Origin: Fervidibacillus halotolerans
GTDB lineage: Bacteria; Bacillota; Bacilli; Bacillales; Caldibacillaceae
Assembly: GCF_026547205.1 (NCBI RefSeq)
Contig: NZ_CP106877.1
Span: 1,142,771 to 1,206,770 of the forward strand
DNA: 64,000 bases
Direction of reading: 5' to 3'
Shown: piece by piece, positions 1 to 27,075 of the stretch
How the letters are laid out: every line of letters begins with the position of its first letter
Numbering within the stretch: the stretch's first letter is position 1
The notes under the pieces: model-generated
Databases searched by the model: none
What the model was told of the DNA's origin: nothing
Seen by the model: the letters and a program-made list of their open reading frames with translations, nothing else
Position numbers and translations under genes: made by a program

Positions 1-638
1 CGATGATAATTTTTATTTTACAATTTACAATTATTTGGCTCCCGTTAGAAATGTTCCTACAGTTTCTGATCGGTGTAATGATGGTAAGCATCGGATTAAT
101 TTTATTTCTACTCGGTGTGAACATTGGATTAGAGAAAGTAGGAGAATTCATTGGTGCTGCATTACCAAAGACGAAAAAAATCTCCGTCGTCATCTTTTTC
201 GGATTTCTTTTAGGGGTCATAGTAACAGTTGCAGAACCTGATGTTCGAGTATTAGCTACACAAGTCGATATCGTTTCTGGGGGTGACATACCAAAAAGTA
301 TTTTAATTTTATCGGTTGGTTTAGGCGTTGGTATTTTTACTGTTTTAGCATTACTTCGCATCGTTTTCAATTGGAATATGGCCCTATTACTAGCAATCGG
401 ATATGGATTCGTATTTTTATTAGCACCCTTTACACCAGCTTCCTTCGTCCCCATTTCCTTTGATTCCGGAGGTGTAACGACAGGACCATTAACCGTCCCT
501 TTTATTCTCTCCCTTGGGATTGGAATTGTTAACGTCGTTAAAGGAAAATCTGCTTCCAGTGATGGATTCGGCCTCGTCGGTTTAGCTTCCATTGGTCCAA
601 TTTTAGCTGTTTTGCTTCTAGGAGTGATCTATCAATGA
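1..638 (+). CDS. DUF1538 family membrane protein, first half-size subunit (5' end outside the window)
   Basis: Very hydrophobic protein with about six predicted membrane segments. It carries two motifs shared with the next gene: an acidic EP-x-V-x-VL-x2-QV-x2-VSGG stretch and FDSGGVTTGP. I place it in the DUF1538 family, putative transporters of unknown substrate. The first ATG at position 3 is probably internal: aligned with the downstream paralogue, about 25 N-terminal residues are missing, so the true start lies left of the window. It overlaps the next gene by 4 bases (ATGA), implying translational coupling. The family is confident; the function is unknown. Confidence 0.8.
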   Translation, partial: MIIFILQFTIIWLPLEMFLQFLIGVMMVSIGLILFLLGVNIGLEKVGEFIGAALPKTKKISVVIFFGFLLGVIVTVAEPDVRVLATQVDIVSGGDIPKSILILSVGLGVGIFTVLALLRIVFNWNMALLLAIGYGFVFLLAPFTPASFVPISFDSGGVTTGPLTVPFILSLGIGIVNVVKGKSASSDGFGLVGLASIGPILAVLLLGVIYQ

Positions 639-1402
639 TTCAGTCGATTTTTGAAAATTTTGATAAAGTTCTTTTCGAAGTTGCTACCGCGTTACTTCCC
701 CTCTTCGTTGTATTTTTATTGTTTCAGATGGTTCTATTAAAACTACCGAAAAAGAAAGTGATCGATATTACAATCGGATTCATTTTATCTTTTTTCGGCT
801 TGGCTTTCTTTTTACAAGGGGTTCATTTTGGATTTTTACCAATTGGTCAAACGATCGGGGAAAAACTTGGCTCTCTCCCCTATAAATGGATTATTATTCC
901 CATCGGTTTTATTATTGGATTTTTTACCGTTTATGCAGAACCTGCCGTCAGCGTGTTAATCCACCAAGTAGAAAAAGTATCTGGAGGTTATATACCACAA
1001 AAATTTTTACTATATGCTCTATCGATCGGTGTTGGATTAGCCATTAGTTTATCAGCAATTCGCATACTATTCGGACTCTCCCTATGGTATTTTGTTATTC
1101 CAGGGTATATAATAGCATTTATAATGATTAAATATGTTCCGAAAACCTTCATTTCCATTGCGTTCGATTCTGGTGGAGTAGCGACTGGACCTATGACCGC
1201 TACCTTTATATTAGCTTTATTTGTCGGACTCGCAAGTGTAACGGATGGGAGAGATCCACTCCTTGATGGATTTGGGATGGTTGCTTTAGTCGCTTTGGCT
1301 CCCATTTTATCGGTATTGACGCTAGGTACCCTTTACGGAAGAAAGGAGAAGGAACTATATGGAAAAGATTGTGGGGCAGAAATTAATCGTCACGATCGTT
1401 AA
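635..1402 (+). CDS. DUF1538 family membrane protein, second half-size subunit
   Basis: A 255-residue polytopic membrane protein, paralogous to the preceding gene. It has about six or seven hydrophobic segments, the EP-x-V-x-VL-x2-QV-x2-VSGG motif at about residues 90-110 and FDSGGVATGPMT at about 185-195. My recollection is that many DUF1538 proteins are about 500 residues with two such halves in one chain; here the halves are separate, which suggests a heterodimer (inference). The last 44 bases overlap the PII-like gene in another frame. The substrate is unknown; the adjacent PII-like protein suggests control by a small-molecule signal. Confidence 0.82.
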   Translation: MIQSIFENFDKVLFEVATALLPLFVVFLLFQMVLLKLPKKKVIDITIGFILSFFGLAFFLQGVHFGFLPIGQTIGEKLGSLPYKWIIIPIGFIIGFFTVYAEPAVSVLIHQVEKVSGGYIPQKFLLYALSIGVGLAISLSAIRILFGLSLWYFVIPGYIIAFIMIKYVPKTFISIAFDSGGVATGPMTATFILALFVGLASVTDGRDPLLDGFGMVALVALAPILSVLTLGTLYGRKEKELYGKDCGAEINRHDR

Positions 1403-2084
1403 AAAAGAAAAGGCGAAAAAAATTATTGAAGCGACAAAAAGGGCTGGAGCGAGAGGTGGAACAACCCTTTATGGGGAAGGATTCCGTCGAGGTGATAAGG
1501 ATTATTTTTTCGGTATTCCAATTATAAGAGAACGGGAAATTATCTTTACGATTGTAGATGAAAAAATTTACGAACGGGTGCTCGATTGTATTATTCATAC
1601 TGGATGTTTAAATCGACCGAAACAAGGGATATCTTTTGTCATTGATGTCGATCATGTAATCGGGATGCATCCGACCGAAAATGGTAACAGGGACCATTTT
1701 AAAGATAGTAGGGGGAAAGAGAGAATGGTGGACAATCGCTCAATCGAATACGATCTGATTATTACGATTGTTAACAAAGGGGACTCTGAAAAGGTGATTG
1801 AATCGTCAAAAAGGGCTGGAGCGGAAGGTGGAACGATTATTTCTGGTCGAGGAACGGGAATTCATGAAAAGGCAAAACTATTCAATATTTTAATCGAGCC
1901 TGAAAAGGAAGTCGTGCTAACGCTTATAAATAAAGAAAAAACGACAGAAGTTTTAAAAGCGATTGAAAAAGAAACCCAATTGCATAAACCGGGGAAAGGA
2001 ATCGCCTTTGTTTTAAATGTGGAAAGGGCTGTCGGAATTAATCATCCGCTAAGGGCGACAATCAACGAACATTCGGAGAAATAA
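1359..2084 (+). CDS. Tandem PII-like signalling protein (two GlnB-type domains)
   Basis: The 241 residues split into two similar halves. Each begins LI-(V/I)-TIV and contains K-RAGA-x-GGT, then a KPGKGIAFV or RPKQGISFV strand close to the C-terminal part of PII folds. Domain 1 covers about residues 8-105 and domain 2 about 128-225, joined by a charged linker. The canonical uridylylated T-loop tyrosine is not evident, so this is a divergent PII-like sensor rather than GlnB/GlnK. The ATG has a good AGAAAGGAG site upstream and starts inside the preceding gene. It probably regulates the DUF1538 pair (inferred from operon structure). Confidence 0.82.
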   Translation: MEKIVGQKLIVTIVKKEKAKKIIEATKRAGARGGTTLYGEGFRRGDKDYFFGIPIIREREIIFTIVDEKIYERVLDCIIHTGCLNRPKQGISFVIDVDHVIGMHPTENGNRDHFKDSRGKERMVDNRSIEYDLIITIVNKGDSEKVIESSKRAGAEGGTIISGRGTGIHEKAKLFNILIEPEKEVVLTLINKEKTTEVLKAIEKETQLHKPGKGIAFVLNVERAVGINHPLRATINEHSEK

Positions 2085-2244
2085 AAAGTTGAAAAGACAT
2101 TTCTCATATGAATCGATTGAAAGTCCGCTAATCATTAAAAAGGGTCTTTGTCAAATCGTGTTGGAGAATAATTTCGTAATTTTTTTCAGTAAAATGTAAT
2201 TGGATCAGGTTGTCCATTCATCCAAAATTGGTTTAAAGTTATTC

Positions 2245-2352
2245 GTTCCATTGGCGGACGCGCATCCAGTGGTACGGCTCAAACCTCCTCGTCACTTCTC
2301 TCCTGCGGAGTCTCGAGACCCGTGCTTTCCCCGCAGGAGTCGCCGCAAATGT
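2245..2352. repeat. GC-rich imperfect palindrome inside IS copy 1
   Basis: It begins GTTCCATTGGCGGACGCGCA and contains TCTCGAGACCCGTGC and TTTCCCCGCAGGAGTCGCCG, far more GC-rich than its surroundings. It corresponds to the complete palindrome at 26862-26972, but the outer right arm is decayed (GCAAATGTT instead of CCAATGGAAC). In the IS it lies just 3' of the transposase remnant. Confidence 0.7.
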
Positions 2353-2696
2353 TTTCTATTTTGGACTTAATGGACACCTTTTTTATGGTTACGAAATGAT
2401 TGGTAAAAAGAATACGATGTATAAAATAATCAAAGCACTTATAACCAAAGGCAATGGGTTTCATCGTCTTCGTCTTTATTGATTCCTTCCAAAACCCCGT
2501 TGTTGTATTTTCATGTAAACGTATTTTCTACATGAGGTATGTATTTCATCATTGTGTTTGATGGCGGTTTTCAAATATTTGGAGACGTGTTTTGTTTCTT
2601 TGACAACACCTTCTTTAAGAGCTTAAAGTTCTTCGTTCTTAAACATAAAAGATATTTAACAAAATGCGTATACAATATAGATGAGACATGTGACAT
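2345..2696 (-). pseudogene. ISL3-family transposase remnant (start plus C-terminal part)
   Basis: The reading starts at ATG 2696, behind an AGGAG at 2699-2703, with MSHVSSI. It then jumps to a C-terminal transposase region: KYIPHVENTFT, a stop, KYNNGVLEGIN, then after a frameshift KTMKPIAFGYKCFDYFIHR. This matches the ISL3 pattern of NG-x2-EG-x-NN-x-IK-x2-KR-x-AFGY, in which the glutamate is the last acidic residue of the DDE triad. There are two in-frame stops and one frameshift, and most of the roughly 400-codon gene is gone. The boundary near 2345 is approximate. Confidence 0.75.
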
Positions 2697-2958
2697 TACT
2701 CCTATAAATGTGGTTTGGTGATTACATTTTTCCAGGGGAATGTCACTTTTTTTGATTAAAAAAAGGTGCTGGTATTTAGTCACCAACACCAAAAATTATA
2801 GAGCCGTTAAAAATAGCGGATTTTTCCATCGGGTGTTTTTTTACTTGTCAATATGTCATCTCCCAAATCCCCTTTTTCAAAAGGGAAAGGAAGGTCGTTT
2901 TAGTTTACATAATATAATTATAATCAATAAATCGTTTCATTTTTACAGGTAAATGAAT

Positions 2959-4206
2959 TCATTCGGCTTTTAGTTGCTTCAAGACTTCCCAAGCCCCAAC
3001 TTTAACCGCTCTCCGACGAATCGTTTGCCGATTTCCAAAAAGATGGTATTCAAAGGCTTCGGGTGTTTTTCCGTCTATGGAAATTCCAATATAGACCGTT
3101 CCAGGATTTTTCCCTTCTAACGGCGACGGTCCAGCTACTCCGGTAAAACTGATTCCAATATGTGCTTTCATCTTTTTTCTTACATTTTCAGCCATTTCCA
3201 TTGCACATTGTTTACTTACTGCTCCAAAGGTATCAATCGTTTCCTTCTGAACGCCAAGAAAGCCGATCTTTACTTCGTTTGTATAGGAAACAATACCACC
3301 TTGGAACCAATGACTAGCACCGGGAATGGAAGTCAGTTCCTCTTGAAATAATCCCCCAGTCAAACTTTCTGCCGCAGCGATCCTTTTACTCTTCACTTGG
3401 AGAAGCTTTGCCATTTCATCTATAATCGTCGTCTCATCGTAACCATAAAAATAAGGACCGACTCGAGATAAAATTTCCCCTTCCAATTGGTCAATTAACT
3501 CCTTGCGTTTCCTTTTATCAGAATGTTTCACCGTCAGTCGCAAGGTTACTTCACCATCCGATGCTAATGGAGCGATTGTCGGGTTGGACTGGCGATCGAT
3601 TAAATCCTCGATTTCCTTTTCTAATGTGGATTCTCCGATACCGAAAAATCGTAATACCTTCGACTCGATTGTTTCGCATTTTCCTAAACGTTTCAATAAT
3701 GATCGTTTCCCATATTTTTTAAACATAGGCTCCAATTCTGACGGTGGCCCTGGTAATAACATATACGTAATATCATCTTGTGTAAAAACCATCCCCGGTG
3801 CCATTCCCGTATCATTGGGCAAAACTTCACTTCCTGCTAAAACATATGCTTGCTTTTTATTATTTTCGGTCATTGTTCTATTCATTTTTTTAAAAAAGGC
3901 TTTAATCGATTGGAAGGATTCTTCATCCATTACTAAATCTCTTTGTACGATTTCTGCCAAAGTTTCCTTTGTTAAATCATCCTTCGTCGGACCGAGACCA
4001 CCGGTAAATAAAATAAATTGGGATCGCTTTTTAGCGATTTCGACAGCATTTTTTAATCGATTTCGATTATCCCCCACCACGGTATGGAAATAAACATTGA
4101 CACCGATAGTCGCTAACTCTTTCGACAAAAATTTTGCATTCGTATTTGCAATTTGTCCTAAAAGTAATTCCGAACCTACGGCGATAATTTCCGCATTCAT
4201 TTTCAT
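2959..4206 (-). CDS. cinA: CinA, competence/damage-inducible protein
   Basis: At 415 residues it has the usual family length. The N-terminal half is a MoaB/MogA-like domain with GGLGPTKDD at 69-77; the C-terminal third is a PncC-type nicotinamide-nucleotide amidase domain with AAESLTGG at about 280. CinA proteins are linked to pyridine-nucleotide salvage, and in B. subtilis the gene belongs to the competence regulon and is followed by recA. Here no recA follows; the next thing downstream is the IS remnant. An AAAGGTGG site precedes two possible ATGs (4206 and 4200); the family usually starts at the second (MNAEII). Confidence 0.95.
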
Positions 4207-4239
4207 CCAACCACCTTTGGAGATGTTCTCTCCTTTACT

Positions 4240-4818
4240 TTATTTCGAATTGGCAAAAACATGCTTATTTTTCGCGAAATAATCCCAACCGGACCAGATC
4301 GTGAAGAATGTTGCAATATACAGGGCGAGATCAGCAAAAGGTATGCCTAAATATGAAAAAGGTATATTATTTAATAAAAGGGCCGTTACGGCGATAATTT
4401 GTGTCCACGTTTTTATTTTTCCAAGCATATTGGCTGCAACAACTTCACCTCCTCCAGCTAGTACGAGTCGAAGTCCTGTTACAGCAAATTCCCGACTGAT
4501 GATAATAATCACAATCCATGACGGAGCCAGTTGCATTTCAACTAAAATGATTAAGGCAGATGATACGAGCAACTTATCTGCTAACGGGTCCAAAAACTTC
4601 CCTAAATTTGTAACTAGATTATATTTTCTCGCGTAATACCCATCTATCCAATCCGTTGTTGAGGCAATGATAAATAAAATTGTACCGATCAGTTGTGAAA
4701 CGGGGAGTTCGGTATCTCCAAATGTCAATACCCCCCAAGACCAATCAATCACCATGATTATAACAAAAACAGGAATTAAAAAAACACGGGAAATCGTTAT
4801 TTTATTTGGTAAATTCAT
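4240..4818 (-). CDS. pgsA: CDP-diacylglycerol--glycerol-3-phosphate 3-phosphatidyltransferase PgsA
   Basis: This 192-residue integral membrane enzyme makes phosphatidylglycerol phosphate, the committed step to phosphatidylglycerol and cardiolipin. The full CDP-alcohol phosphotransferase signature is present: D56-x2-D59-G60-x2-A63-R64-x8-G73-x3-D77-x3-D81, where the aspartates bind Mg and the substrate. Hydrophobic segments lie at about 10-28, 45-55, 85-110 and 130-180. It is followed by cinA after 33 bases and preceded by the terminator of the rodZ-like gene, so it probably has its own promoter. The order ymfM-pgsA-cinA matches Bacillus. Confidence 0.96.
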   Translation of the reverse strand: MNLPNKITISRVFLIPVFVIIMVIDWSWGVLTFGDTELPVSQLIGTILFIIASTTDWIDGYYARKYNLVTNLGKFLDPLADKLLVSSALIILVEMQLAPSWIVIIIISREFAVTGLRLVLAGGGEVVAANMLGKIKTWTQIIAVTALLLNNIPFSYLGIPFADLALYIATFFTIWSGWDYFAKNKHVFANSK

Positions 4819-4901
4819 CAGTAAACCTCCATGTATAGAATTAAGACTTTCAACTATTTTTTAAAGGAAGGGATTGGTTCATGCCTTTCAATCTGTTTCC
4901 G

Positions 4902-4943
4902 AAAAAGAAGGAAAATAGTCTTCTCCTTTGACTATTCTCCTTC
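4902..4943 (-). terminator. Intrinsic terminator after the RodZ-like gene
   Basis: On the minus strand the 14-bp arms GAAGGAGAATAGTC and GACTATTTTCCTTC (one mismatch, 9-nt loop) are followed by TTTTTC. The upstream arm includes the last codons and stop of the RodZ-like gene. Confidence 0.85.
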
Positions 4944-5861
4944 TTTTACTACATAGCGAATAATAATATTTTGCGTTACATTTTCATTCGGATCATTCAT
5001 AAAGGTTAACTTTTCATCATTTATATATATTTCCGTTTCATAGGCTCTTCCAATCCGAATGTTCACTGTGTCCTCTTCTGAAAAATCGCGAATAATTTCT
5101 GGGTTGTTATCGTTTAACGTAACACCATCTTGGAGTACATTGTTATTTTCATCGAAGATTTTGATCCAAGTAGCTCCATTTTTTGTCGCTTTAATTTTCA
5201 ATTCAAAGCGTTCAGCATTTTTTAATTCATAAAGGGTATTTTCTCCATCCGATTCAACGGCTGTCAATTCTTGACTTTTCTCTTCTCCTTCTCCTTCATC
5301 CGTTTCCGTTTGGTCGTTTCCTACAGACGGATCGGAATTTTCACTTTCATCACTGTTGTCAACTTCTGTTTCTTTATTCTCAGGTGGTGTACCCGATTCA
5401 CCGATTTCTACTAAATCGTCAGTGGTAGGATCTGTAGATTGATCACTCAACGTATTCGTTAAGATTTTTTGAGCGAAATACCATACTAAAATAGCTAAAC
5501 CAATGATAAAAATGGTTAGCAATATTTTCGGGAAAATCTCAAATAACTTAGAATTTGTAGAAATTTCCCTTCTTGAATGGGTGCGGGAAAGCTGTTCAGG
5601 CAAATCATCCTCATAAACGGAAGGTATCTCAGTCTTGAATTCTTCAAAAAGACGCTCAGGCTCTAAACCTACAGCCTCCGCATATTGTTTAATAAAGGCT
5701 CGTACATAAAATTTTCCTGGAATGATATCGTATTTTCCTTCTTCAATTCCTGCTAAATAACGCTTTTGAATTTTCGTTATATTTTGCAGATCATCTAATG
5801 TTAATCCTTTTTCTTCACGTGCTTCTCGTAACCTTTTCCCTAATTCTGTCAATGAAAACAC
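4932..5861 (-). CDS. ymfM: RodZ-like (YmfM) membrane-anchored HTH protein
   Basis: The layout is that of RodZ. A Cro/XRE-like helix-turn-helix covers residues 1-75 (LGKRLREAREEKGLTLDDL), a basic segment precedes a single membrane helix at about 109-131, then comes a strongly acidic, Ser/Glu/Asp-rich linker at about 140-205 and a C-terminal DUF4115-type beta domain ending in a strand-rich 210-305 region. RodZ links MreB filaments to the elongation machinery and affects rod shape. In B. subtilis the gene lies between ymfK and pgsA, as here. At 309 residues it is typical for the family. Confidence 0.88.
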   Translation of the reverse strand: MFSLTELGKRLREAREEKGLTLDDLQNITKIQKRYLAGIEEGKYDIIPGKFYVRAFIKQYAEAVGLEPERLFEEFKTEIPSVYEDDLPEQLSRTHSRREISTNSKLFEIFPKILLTIFIIGLAILVWYFAQKILTNTLSDQSTDPTTDDLVEIGESGTPPENKETEVDNSDESENSDPSVGNDQTETDEGEGEEKSQELTAVESDGENTLYELKNAERFELKIKATKNGATWIKIFDENNNVLQDGVTLNDNNPEIIRDFSEEDTVNIRIGRAYETEIYINDEKLTFMNDPNENVTQNIIIRYVVKEGE

Positions 5862-7997: not shown

Positions 7998-9284
7998 TTA
8001 TTTTGGAACAATTTGAAAACTAGTCATTCGGTTTTCATCGATGAATTGTTCACTAACGTTCATCAGGTCCTCAAAGGTAATCGTTTCTAAAACGGGTACG
8101 GCTTCGAACAAATTCATACCATTAAATGCATATCGGGTAAATTGATTCGCTATATACTCCGGCGAATTCAATAAACGTAAAAAGGTTCCGATTTTCTTTT
8201 TCTTCACCCGGTTTAATTGCTCCTCCGTTAATATTTCACCCTTTTTAACGAAATGAAAAGTTTTTTGGATAAATTCAGCTAGTCGGTCCGGATCTTTCGT
8301 ATCACCACCAACGAGTGCAAAACCGAAATTTTCCTCCTGGGTATAATCAGCAGAAAAAGTATCGTCAATTAAACCTTCATTATAAAGTTTTTCATACTGA
8401 CCAGAACTTTTGGAAAATAGCATATCTAACAACAATTGGACGGTCAATTCTGTTTTCATCATTTCTCGTCCCCTTTGGCGGATGAAATTCCCTTTTATTC
8501 CCACCATACATTTCGGAATTCTTACATTCATCGATATAAAACGGTTCTTCTTCAGCACATGATCTGGTTCTTCCTTTCGAATCCGTTGAATCTCCATGTC
8601 TTTAGAAAATGATTTTTTTCTTTGATTTTCTTGAACAAAATCTAAGATTTCCCTTGGGTCAACAGGTCCTACGATAAATAAAAGCATATTGCTTGGGTGG
8701 TAAAAGGTATGGTAACATTCATACAATAATTCTTTTGTAATATGAGAAATCGATTCAATCGTTCCTGCAATATTCGTTTTTACCGGATGATGATGATACA
8801 TATTTTCAATCGTTCCGAAATAAAGACGCCAATCCGGATGATCTTCATACATTTGAATCTCTTGACCGATAATCCCTTTTTCCTTCTCAACCGTTTGATC
8901 TGTAAAATAAGGTTCTTGAACAAAATCGAGTAATGTTCTAAGATTTTCTTTTACATTGGACGTAGCGGAAAACAAATATGCCGTCCTCGTAAAGGAAGTG
9001 AAGGCGTTGGCAGAAGCTCCCTGTTTACTAAATGTGTGAAAAACATCCCCATCTTCCTTTTCAAACAATTTGTGCTCGAGAAAATGGGCGATTCCATCCG
9101 GAACGATTTTTTCCGTTTGGTTACCAATGGGAACAAAATGATCATCGATGGAGCCGTATTTCGTTGTAAATGTGGCGAACGTTTTATGAAATCCCTTTTT
9201 CGGTAAAATGTATACGTCTAAACCGTTTTTCAACTTTTCAAAATACAGTTGTTCATTCAATTGGGGAAAAGGTATTTTTTTCAT
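7998..9284 (-). CDS. ymfH: YmfH, M16 family zinc peptidase (catalytic type)
   Basis: The 428-residue pitrilysin/insulinase-type protease has the inverted zinc site H67-F-L-E70-H71 and the distal glutamate region EKGIIGQEI about 75 residues later. Its partner ymfF, 2 bases upstream in the operon, lacks this site, so the pair probably forms a catalytic/non-catalytic complex as in mitochondrial processing peptidase-like enzymes (inference). The natural substrates are not established. It is followed by ymfI. Confidence 0.9.
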   Translation of the reverse strand: MKKIPFPQLNEQLYFEKLKNGLDVYILPKKGFHKTFATFTTKYGSIDDHFVPIGNQTEKIVPDGIAHFLEHKLFEKEDGDVFHTFSKQGASANAFTSFTRTAYLFSATSNVKENLRTLLDFVQEPYFTDQTVEKEKGIIGQEIQMYEDHPDWRLYFGTIENMYHHHPVKTNIAGTIESISHITKELLYECYHTFYHPSNMLLFIVGPVDPREILDFVQENQRKKSFSKDMEIQRIRKEEPDHVLKKNRFISMNVRIPKCMVGIKGNFIRQRGREMMKTELTVQLLLDMLFSKSSGQYEKLYNEGLIDDTFSADYTQEENFGFALVGGDTKDPDRLAEFIQKTFHFVKKGEILTEEQLNRVKKKKIGTFLRLLNSPEYIANQFTRYAFNGMNLFEAVPVLETITFEDLMNVSEQFIDENRMTSFQIVPK

Positions 9285-26719: not shown

Positions 26720-27075
26720 AGCTCTATAATTTTTGATGTTGGTGACTAAACCTAGAACCTTTTTTGATCAAAAAAATAGAGACAAGTGACACTCCCCTGG
26801 TAAAATGTAATCGCCAAACCACATTTATAGGAGTAATGTCACATGTCTCATCATTATTGAAGTTCCATTGGCGACAACTCCTGCGGGGAAAGCACGAGCC
26901 TCGAGACCCAGCAGGAACGAAGTGACAAGGAGACTCGAGCCGTGCTACTGGATGCGCGTCCGCCAATGGAACGAATCACTTCAAACCGATTTTGGATGAA
27001 TGGACAACCTGATCCGATTACATTTTACTGAAAAAAGTCACGAAATTATTCACCAACACGATTTGACAAAGAACC
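26720..27075 (+). mobile_element. MITE-like ISL3 derivative, copy 2
   Basis: The 356-bp element has the same ends as copy 1: AGCTCTATAATTTTT...GTTGGTGACTAA at 26720 and, inverted, GGTTCTTTGTCAAATCG...GTTGGTGAATAA ending at 27075. The flanks AAAAAAAC (26712-26719) and AAAAAAAA (27076-27083) form a 7-of-8 target duplication. It keeps the transposase ribosome site and start codon (ATG 26836, MSHVSS) but then passes directly into the GC-rich palindrome and the 3' end. All coding sequence between is gone. It would need a transposase supplied from elsewhere. Its orientation is opposite to copy 1. Confidence 0.85.
26862..26972. repeat. GC-rich nested palindrome inside the MITE-like element
   Basis: The outer arms GTTCCATTGGCG (26862-26873) and CGCCAATGGAAC (26961-26972) are exact complements. 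Inner arms AGCACGAGCCTCGAG (about 26891-26905) and CTCGAGCCGTGCT (about 26934-26946) pair imperfectly, and the middle contains CAGGAACGAAGTGACAAGG. Transcribed, this would be a long branched hairpin. A decayed copy lies at 2245-2352. Confidence 0.8.

Follow-up and report, generated by a model that had tools for sequence, protein, structure and literature searches.

What happens to the transcripts of an operon when a mobile element enters the terminator behind it, and is such an event an accident or a habit of the element? Both questions are raised by a locus in a 64,000-nt stretch of the Fervidibacillus halotolerans genome (hereafter the window), where a small insertion sequence lies between a nitrogen regulatory gene and cinA.

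The insertion site behind the PII gene

The gene in front of the element (1359-2084, plus strand) encodes a two-domain PII-type nitrogen regulatory protein (Pfam P-II, PF00543, matched in two stretches, E=6.5e-15). With a DUF1538 match upstream of it (Pfam, E=6e-77), it is the final gene of a DUF1538-PII operon, whose own terminator is the insertion site. This operon, with its two-domain PII gene, spans 3-2084 and adjoins cinA. The presence of recA behind cinA was considered as an ancestral context, but recA lies ~11 kb from cinA here and is uninformative on the insertion. An Rfam search of window positions 1-5000 gave no match.

Read directly on the plus strand, the locus starts with the 5' part of the ancestral terminator, the AAGTCCGCTA arm and the loop start ATC (2121-2133), within which the left arm TCCGCTA occupies 2124-2130. 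The left copy of the target duplication, ATTAAAAA (2134-2141), the 664-bp element (2142-2805) and the right copy, GTTAAAAA (2806-2813), follow in turn, and the 3' part of the terminator (2814-2825) consists of the arm TAGCGGA (2814-2820) and TTTTT (2821-2825). The arm and border coordinates of the first-pass annotation of this DNA are thus exact to the base; the target duplication that it proposed is present as two 8-bp copies, but these are imperfect, matching at 7/8 positions (A2134 vs G2806).

To obtain the empty site, the flanks were joined in silico, 2141 to 2814. The result reads TCCGCTA, an 11-nt loop and TAGCGGATTTTT, and folds as GTCCGCTA-ATCATTAAAAA-TAGCGGAT followed by TTTT (-9.5 kcal/mol); with the A/T tract included the stem grows to 12 bp (-13.4 kcal/mol). 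The reconstructed site therefore has the stable hairpin and the T-tract (TTTTT) of an intrinsic terminator, ~40 nt downstream of the PII gene, and this T-tract is short (TTTTTCC). An equally strong terminator around the join appeared in only 3/2000 dinucleotide shuffles of the joined flanks, and just 1.15% of the window positions lie inside the loop of a comparable hairpin. Folding thus supports the proposal, already made in the first-pass annotation, that the element entered the loop of a predicted intrinsic terminator behind the PII gene. The two arms are now ~680 nt apart, which precludes local formation of the original hairpin.

The ancestral terminator is a reconstruction and not an observed sequence, because the empty site was found in no sequenced relative among the 7 family genomes and the PII homologues compared. 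Indeed, the PII gene is absent from all 7 further genomes examined within this taxonomic family, and its closest relatives, 56-63% identical, are followed by DNA unrelated to that of the window. A terminator-like hairpin nevertheless begins <=70 nt from the stop codon in 6/11 PII relatives. One could argue, from the lack of an empty site and from the shortness of the arms (7 bp), that their complementarity is fortuitous and that no terminator existed before the insertion. We regard this as highly improbable in view of the shuffling result, the extension of the stem to 12 bp by the A/T tracts, the position of the hairpin just behind the operon, the hairpins of the PII relatives and the inclination of the element family towards terminators described below.

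The element and its family

The element matches 35 stretches of the window's genome, corresponding to about 20 separate copies, and the same two ends, GGTTCTTTGTC... and ...TATAGAGCC, recur in copies elsewhere in this genome. Since these other copies share the ends and carry their own 8-bp duplications, the borders of the window copy are confirmed without recourse to the terminator, and the first-pass annotation had placed them correctly. Several features link the family to the ISL3 insertion sequences: (i) The terminal inverted repeats have the form GGxTCT...GTGTTGG, the left end of the window copy being GGGTCTTTGTCAAATCGTGTTGG and the right end, read on the reverse strand, GGCTCTATAATTTTTGGTG, of which GGCTCTATAATTTTTGGTGTTGG is the repeat. 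The left-end pattern also recurs in other genomes, mostly those of Firmicutes, where at least 115 stretches contain it. (ii) An AT-rich 8-bp target duplication, as in ISL3 elements, is found in most copies with two readable ends, with 0-1 mismatches in L001, L002, L003, L009, L012, L014, L015, L016, L017, L019, L025 and the putative parent L004/L020; it is poor in L018 and L022. (iii) A full-length relative in the same genome (L225, G000:C1:2374807-2378815) has the same two ends, with the GGTTCTTTGTC end at 2378815 and the other at 2374807, is flanked on both sides by CCTTTTTT, and contains the DDE transposase domain of the family (PF01610, DDE_Tnp_ISL3, at G000:C1:2375424-2375807 and 2378245-2378532).

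In contrast to a complete ISL3 element, the 664-bp window copy has no functional transposase gene of its own: its ORFs gave no Pfam match, and the fragments of the tnp region that remain correspond to the ISL3 transposase genes of L225/L226. Because the full-length relative with the same ends encodes an ISL3 transposase, the window copy is, judged by its sequence, an internally deleted, non-autonomous ISL3 derivative, of which L225 is the likely parent. This parent is probably inactive, since its transposase gene is interrupted by what a reading of the ORFs identifies as an IS21-type (istAB-like) pair (L225:2467-4678). Further ISL3 transposase genes lie at G000:C1:2887827, where the frame is open, and at 9223, with one in-frame stop.

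The copies fall into length classes of about 219, 350 and 670 bp, separated by internal deletions. Like the bacterial MITEs, they are short, non-coding, bounded by terminal repeats and present in many copies (review PMC10969869); they differ from them in having several length classes, which appear to derive from a single ISL3 parent by internal deletion. A GC-rich inner part of the window copy (2232-2376, element positions ~91-235; CGTTCCATTGGCGGACG...CCGCAGGAGTCGCCGC) also has matches by itself in further genomes of this taxonomic family; in one of them (G003) it recurs at 23 places that lack the ends of the element. It may be a separate mobile repeat.

Predicted fate of transcripts at the element

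The first-pass annotation had concluded that the PII operon now probably reads through into the element and on towards cinA, antisense to it. All statements on terminators, here and elsewhere, rest on folding, and folding makes this conclusion doubtful. The element carries, on the plus strand, a predicted terminator (2690-2753) composed of a stem-loop at 2690-2746 (-24.5 kcal/mol) and a T7 tract. Nothing separates this T7 from the stem, since 9 nt that would precede the T-tract (TTGTCTCTA) are missing from the window copy, an arrangement peculiar to it within the alignment; in the ten other aligned copies TTGTCTCTA or similar bases stand in that place. A second putative terminator, GGTGTTGGTGACTAAATACCAGCACC-TTTTTTT (2758-2790, minus strand; 2790-2765 followed by T7, -14.9 kcal/mol), faces transcripts arriving from cinA.

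At the right junction (2804-2825, plus strand) a small hairpin, CCGTTA-AAAA-TAGCGG, is predicted to have re-formed before ATTTTT (stem-loop 2804-2819, -6.1 kcal/mol), the two terminal bases of the element being paired there with the former right arm. The arms had been said to make sense only once the element is taken out; they do pair when the flanks are joined, but the right arm also has this weaker partner in the element as it stands. With the A of the left duplication copy in place of G2806 the small hairpin is not formed (-1.6), which means that the hairpin is perfected by the very base at which the two duplication copies differ.

It could still be that the insertion destroyed termination and that the operon is transcribed through the whole element, antisense to cinA. 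The separation of the original arms speaks for this, as does a case from Enterococcus faecium, where an ISL3-associated insertion halfway through a terminator gave read-through (PMC11702846). We nonetheless consider it unlikely, for a transcript on this route would meet first a strong hairpin directly before T7 and then the hairpin of the right junction with its ATTTTT. Termination inside the element or at its end appears more likely for plus-strand transcription on these folding predictions.

A statistical preference for terminators

Is the window copy alone in its choice of site? We scored a copy as terminator-associated when it lies 0-12 nt after a hairpin stem of dG <= -6, in a terminator scan anchored at the stem end. 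By this measure 10/19 of the genome's own copies follow a hairpin, compared with 4.2% of the 3'-intergenic positions of the window (P=1.6e-9), and when only T-rich octamers are considered the figures are 9/9 vs 24% (P=4e-6), all P values here and below being approximate because the control positions overlap one another; a control with all intergenic positions gave a similar result. The octamer that is duplicated is the T-tract of the hairpin itself, for instance TGTTTTTT (L002), AAATTTTT (L003), CCTTTTTT (L004) and CATTTTTA (L012). The window holds a further case, a second and shorter copy (L009, ~355 bp, 26721-27075, minus strand) whose site is likewise a T-tract, that of the host terminator AACCGGTATTTCCGGTT-TTTTTTT, with the duplication (G/T)TTTTTTT. 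Insertions of this kind are probably harmless to the host: the duplication retains hairpin and T-tract together, which should preserve the host terminator.

The association is also oriented. Both ends were readable in 13 copies, of which 7 have the hairpin on the GGTTCTTTGTC side and none has it facing the GGCTCTATAA end; in one copy of which only the right end is present (L005) it is on the other side. The window copy and L019 depart from the T-tract mode in that they lie within the hairpin and split it, and L006, L010, L015 and L018 have no adjacent terminator, for which reason the preference is statistical and not absolute.

Two sets of flanks are worth recording. Beside a strong terminator, L008 (G000:C1:1948837) has a flank whose last bases, GGCTCTATAATAA, resemble the end of another ISL3 copy; this terminator seems to have been the site of two insertions. 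The left flanks of L014 and L025 adjoin similar sequences (GATAGACGCCCCT and TATAGACGCCCT) that may represent the terminus of some unrelated mobile element, and the terminator-like hairpin of L025 may belong to this adjoining sequence.

The association extends beyond this genome. Among ISL3-type ends collected from other genomes by the left-end pattern, 16/79 stand after a hairpin, compared with 3.7% of control positions (P=1.5e-7), and for T-rich octamers 16/34 do so vs 18% (P=1.5e-4); both counts see one side of each insertion and are therefore lower bounds. On the sequences compared, the terminator preference looks like a trait of the element family. An explanation without any targeting is that insertion favours AT-rich DNA, that insertions into genes are purged, and that the sites left between genes happen to be terminators. 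AT-rich duplications and the presence of only about half of the copies at terminators are in keeping with it, but the excess persists, in two data sets, over 3'-intergenic positions and over equally T-rich ones, and mere composition sits poorly with the 7 to 0 asymmetry of the two ends. We therefore judge this explanation quite unlikely.

Discussion

We favour, with a probability of about 0.8 for the explanation as a whole, a scenario in which a non-autonomous ISL3-type element split the terminator loop of the DUF1538-PII operon, as a member of a family with a general preference for terminators, and in which replacement hairpins took over termination. An ISL3 transposase acting in trans would have mobilised an internally deleted element and inserted it, with an 8-bp target duplication, into the terminator loop, separating the two arms. 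While members of the family would usually enter the T-tract immediately downstream of a hairpin, the GGTTCTTTGTC end turned towards it, this copy would have taken the A-run of the loop instead, and the terminator was split as a consequence. Transcripts of the PII gene would then enter the element and most likely stop at 2690-2753 or at the re-formed hairpin of the right junction.

A broader and more tentative proposal, to which we give somewhat less than even odds, is that in Firmicutes ISL3-type transposases select intrinsic terminators as their targets, with a preferred orientation, and recognise them by DNA structure or by an encounter with terminating RNA polymerase. Insertion into the T-tract would in that case be a "safe-site" strategy, the 8-bp duplication leaving the host terminator intact, and where a hairpin is split instead, the hairpins of the element together with small later changes, here the 9-nt deletion and the A/G change in the duplication, would restore termination.

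Terminators as targets have precedents, which differ from the present family in instructive ways. IS1272 and TnSha1 (IS1182 family) of the staphylococci also target terminator hairpins, without primary sequence specificity, but with IS1272 no target duplication arises and the stem-loop is replaced or cut (PMC4923244, PMC5678879). In contrast, the insertions described here produce 8-bp duplications, mostly lie in the T-tract and keep the hairpin; a replaced hairpin without target duplication is not what this family leaves behind. Closer is a case from E. faecium OI25, in whose revertants an ISL3-associated insertion with an 8-bp duplication split a rho-independent terminator of an rRNA operon about halfway, and RT-PCR demonstrated co-transcription across it (PMC11702846). 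Resistance genes were part of that insertion, which caused read-through (PMC11702846), whereas the window element is small and non-coding and has terminator-like hairpins. A large survey found ISL3 elements over-represented between co-directional genes (PMC9208149). Apart from the one E. faecium case, no preference of ISL3 elements for terminators or their T-tracts is described in the literature searched, in which subscription papers are poorly covered, and this absence does not prove that the T-tract preference is new.

A single insertion sequence in a terminator is an ordinary event. A preference of the family for T-tracts, if true, would explain how these elements reach a high copy number without damage to genes, and would predict where ISL3-type elements land, by a mode distinct from the hairpin replacement of IS1272. 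It would also bear on the rarer ISL3-associated insertions that split a terminator and alter the expression of what lies downstream, the one at the rRNA operon of E. faecium being an example.
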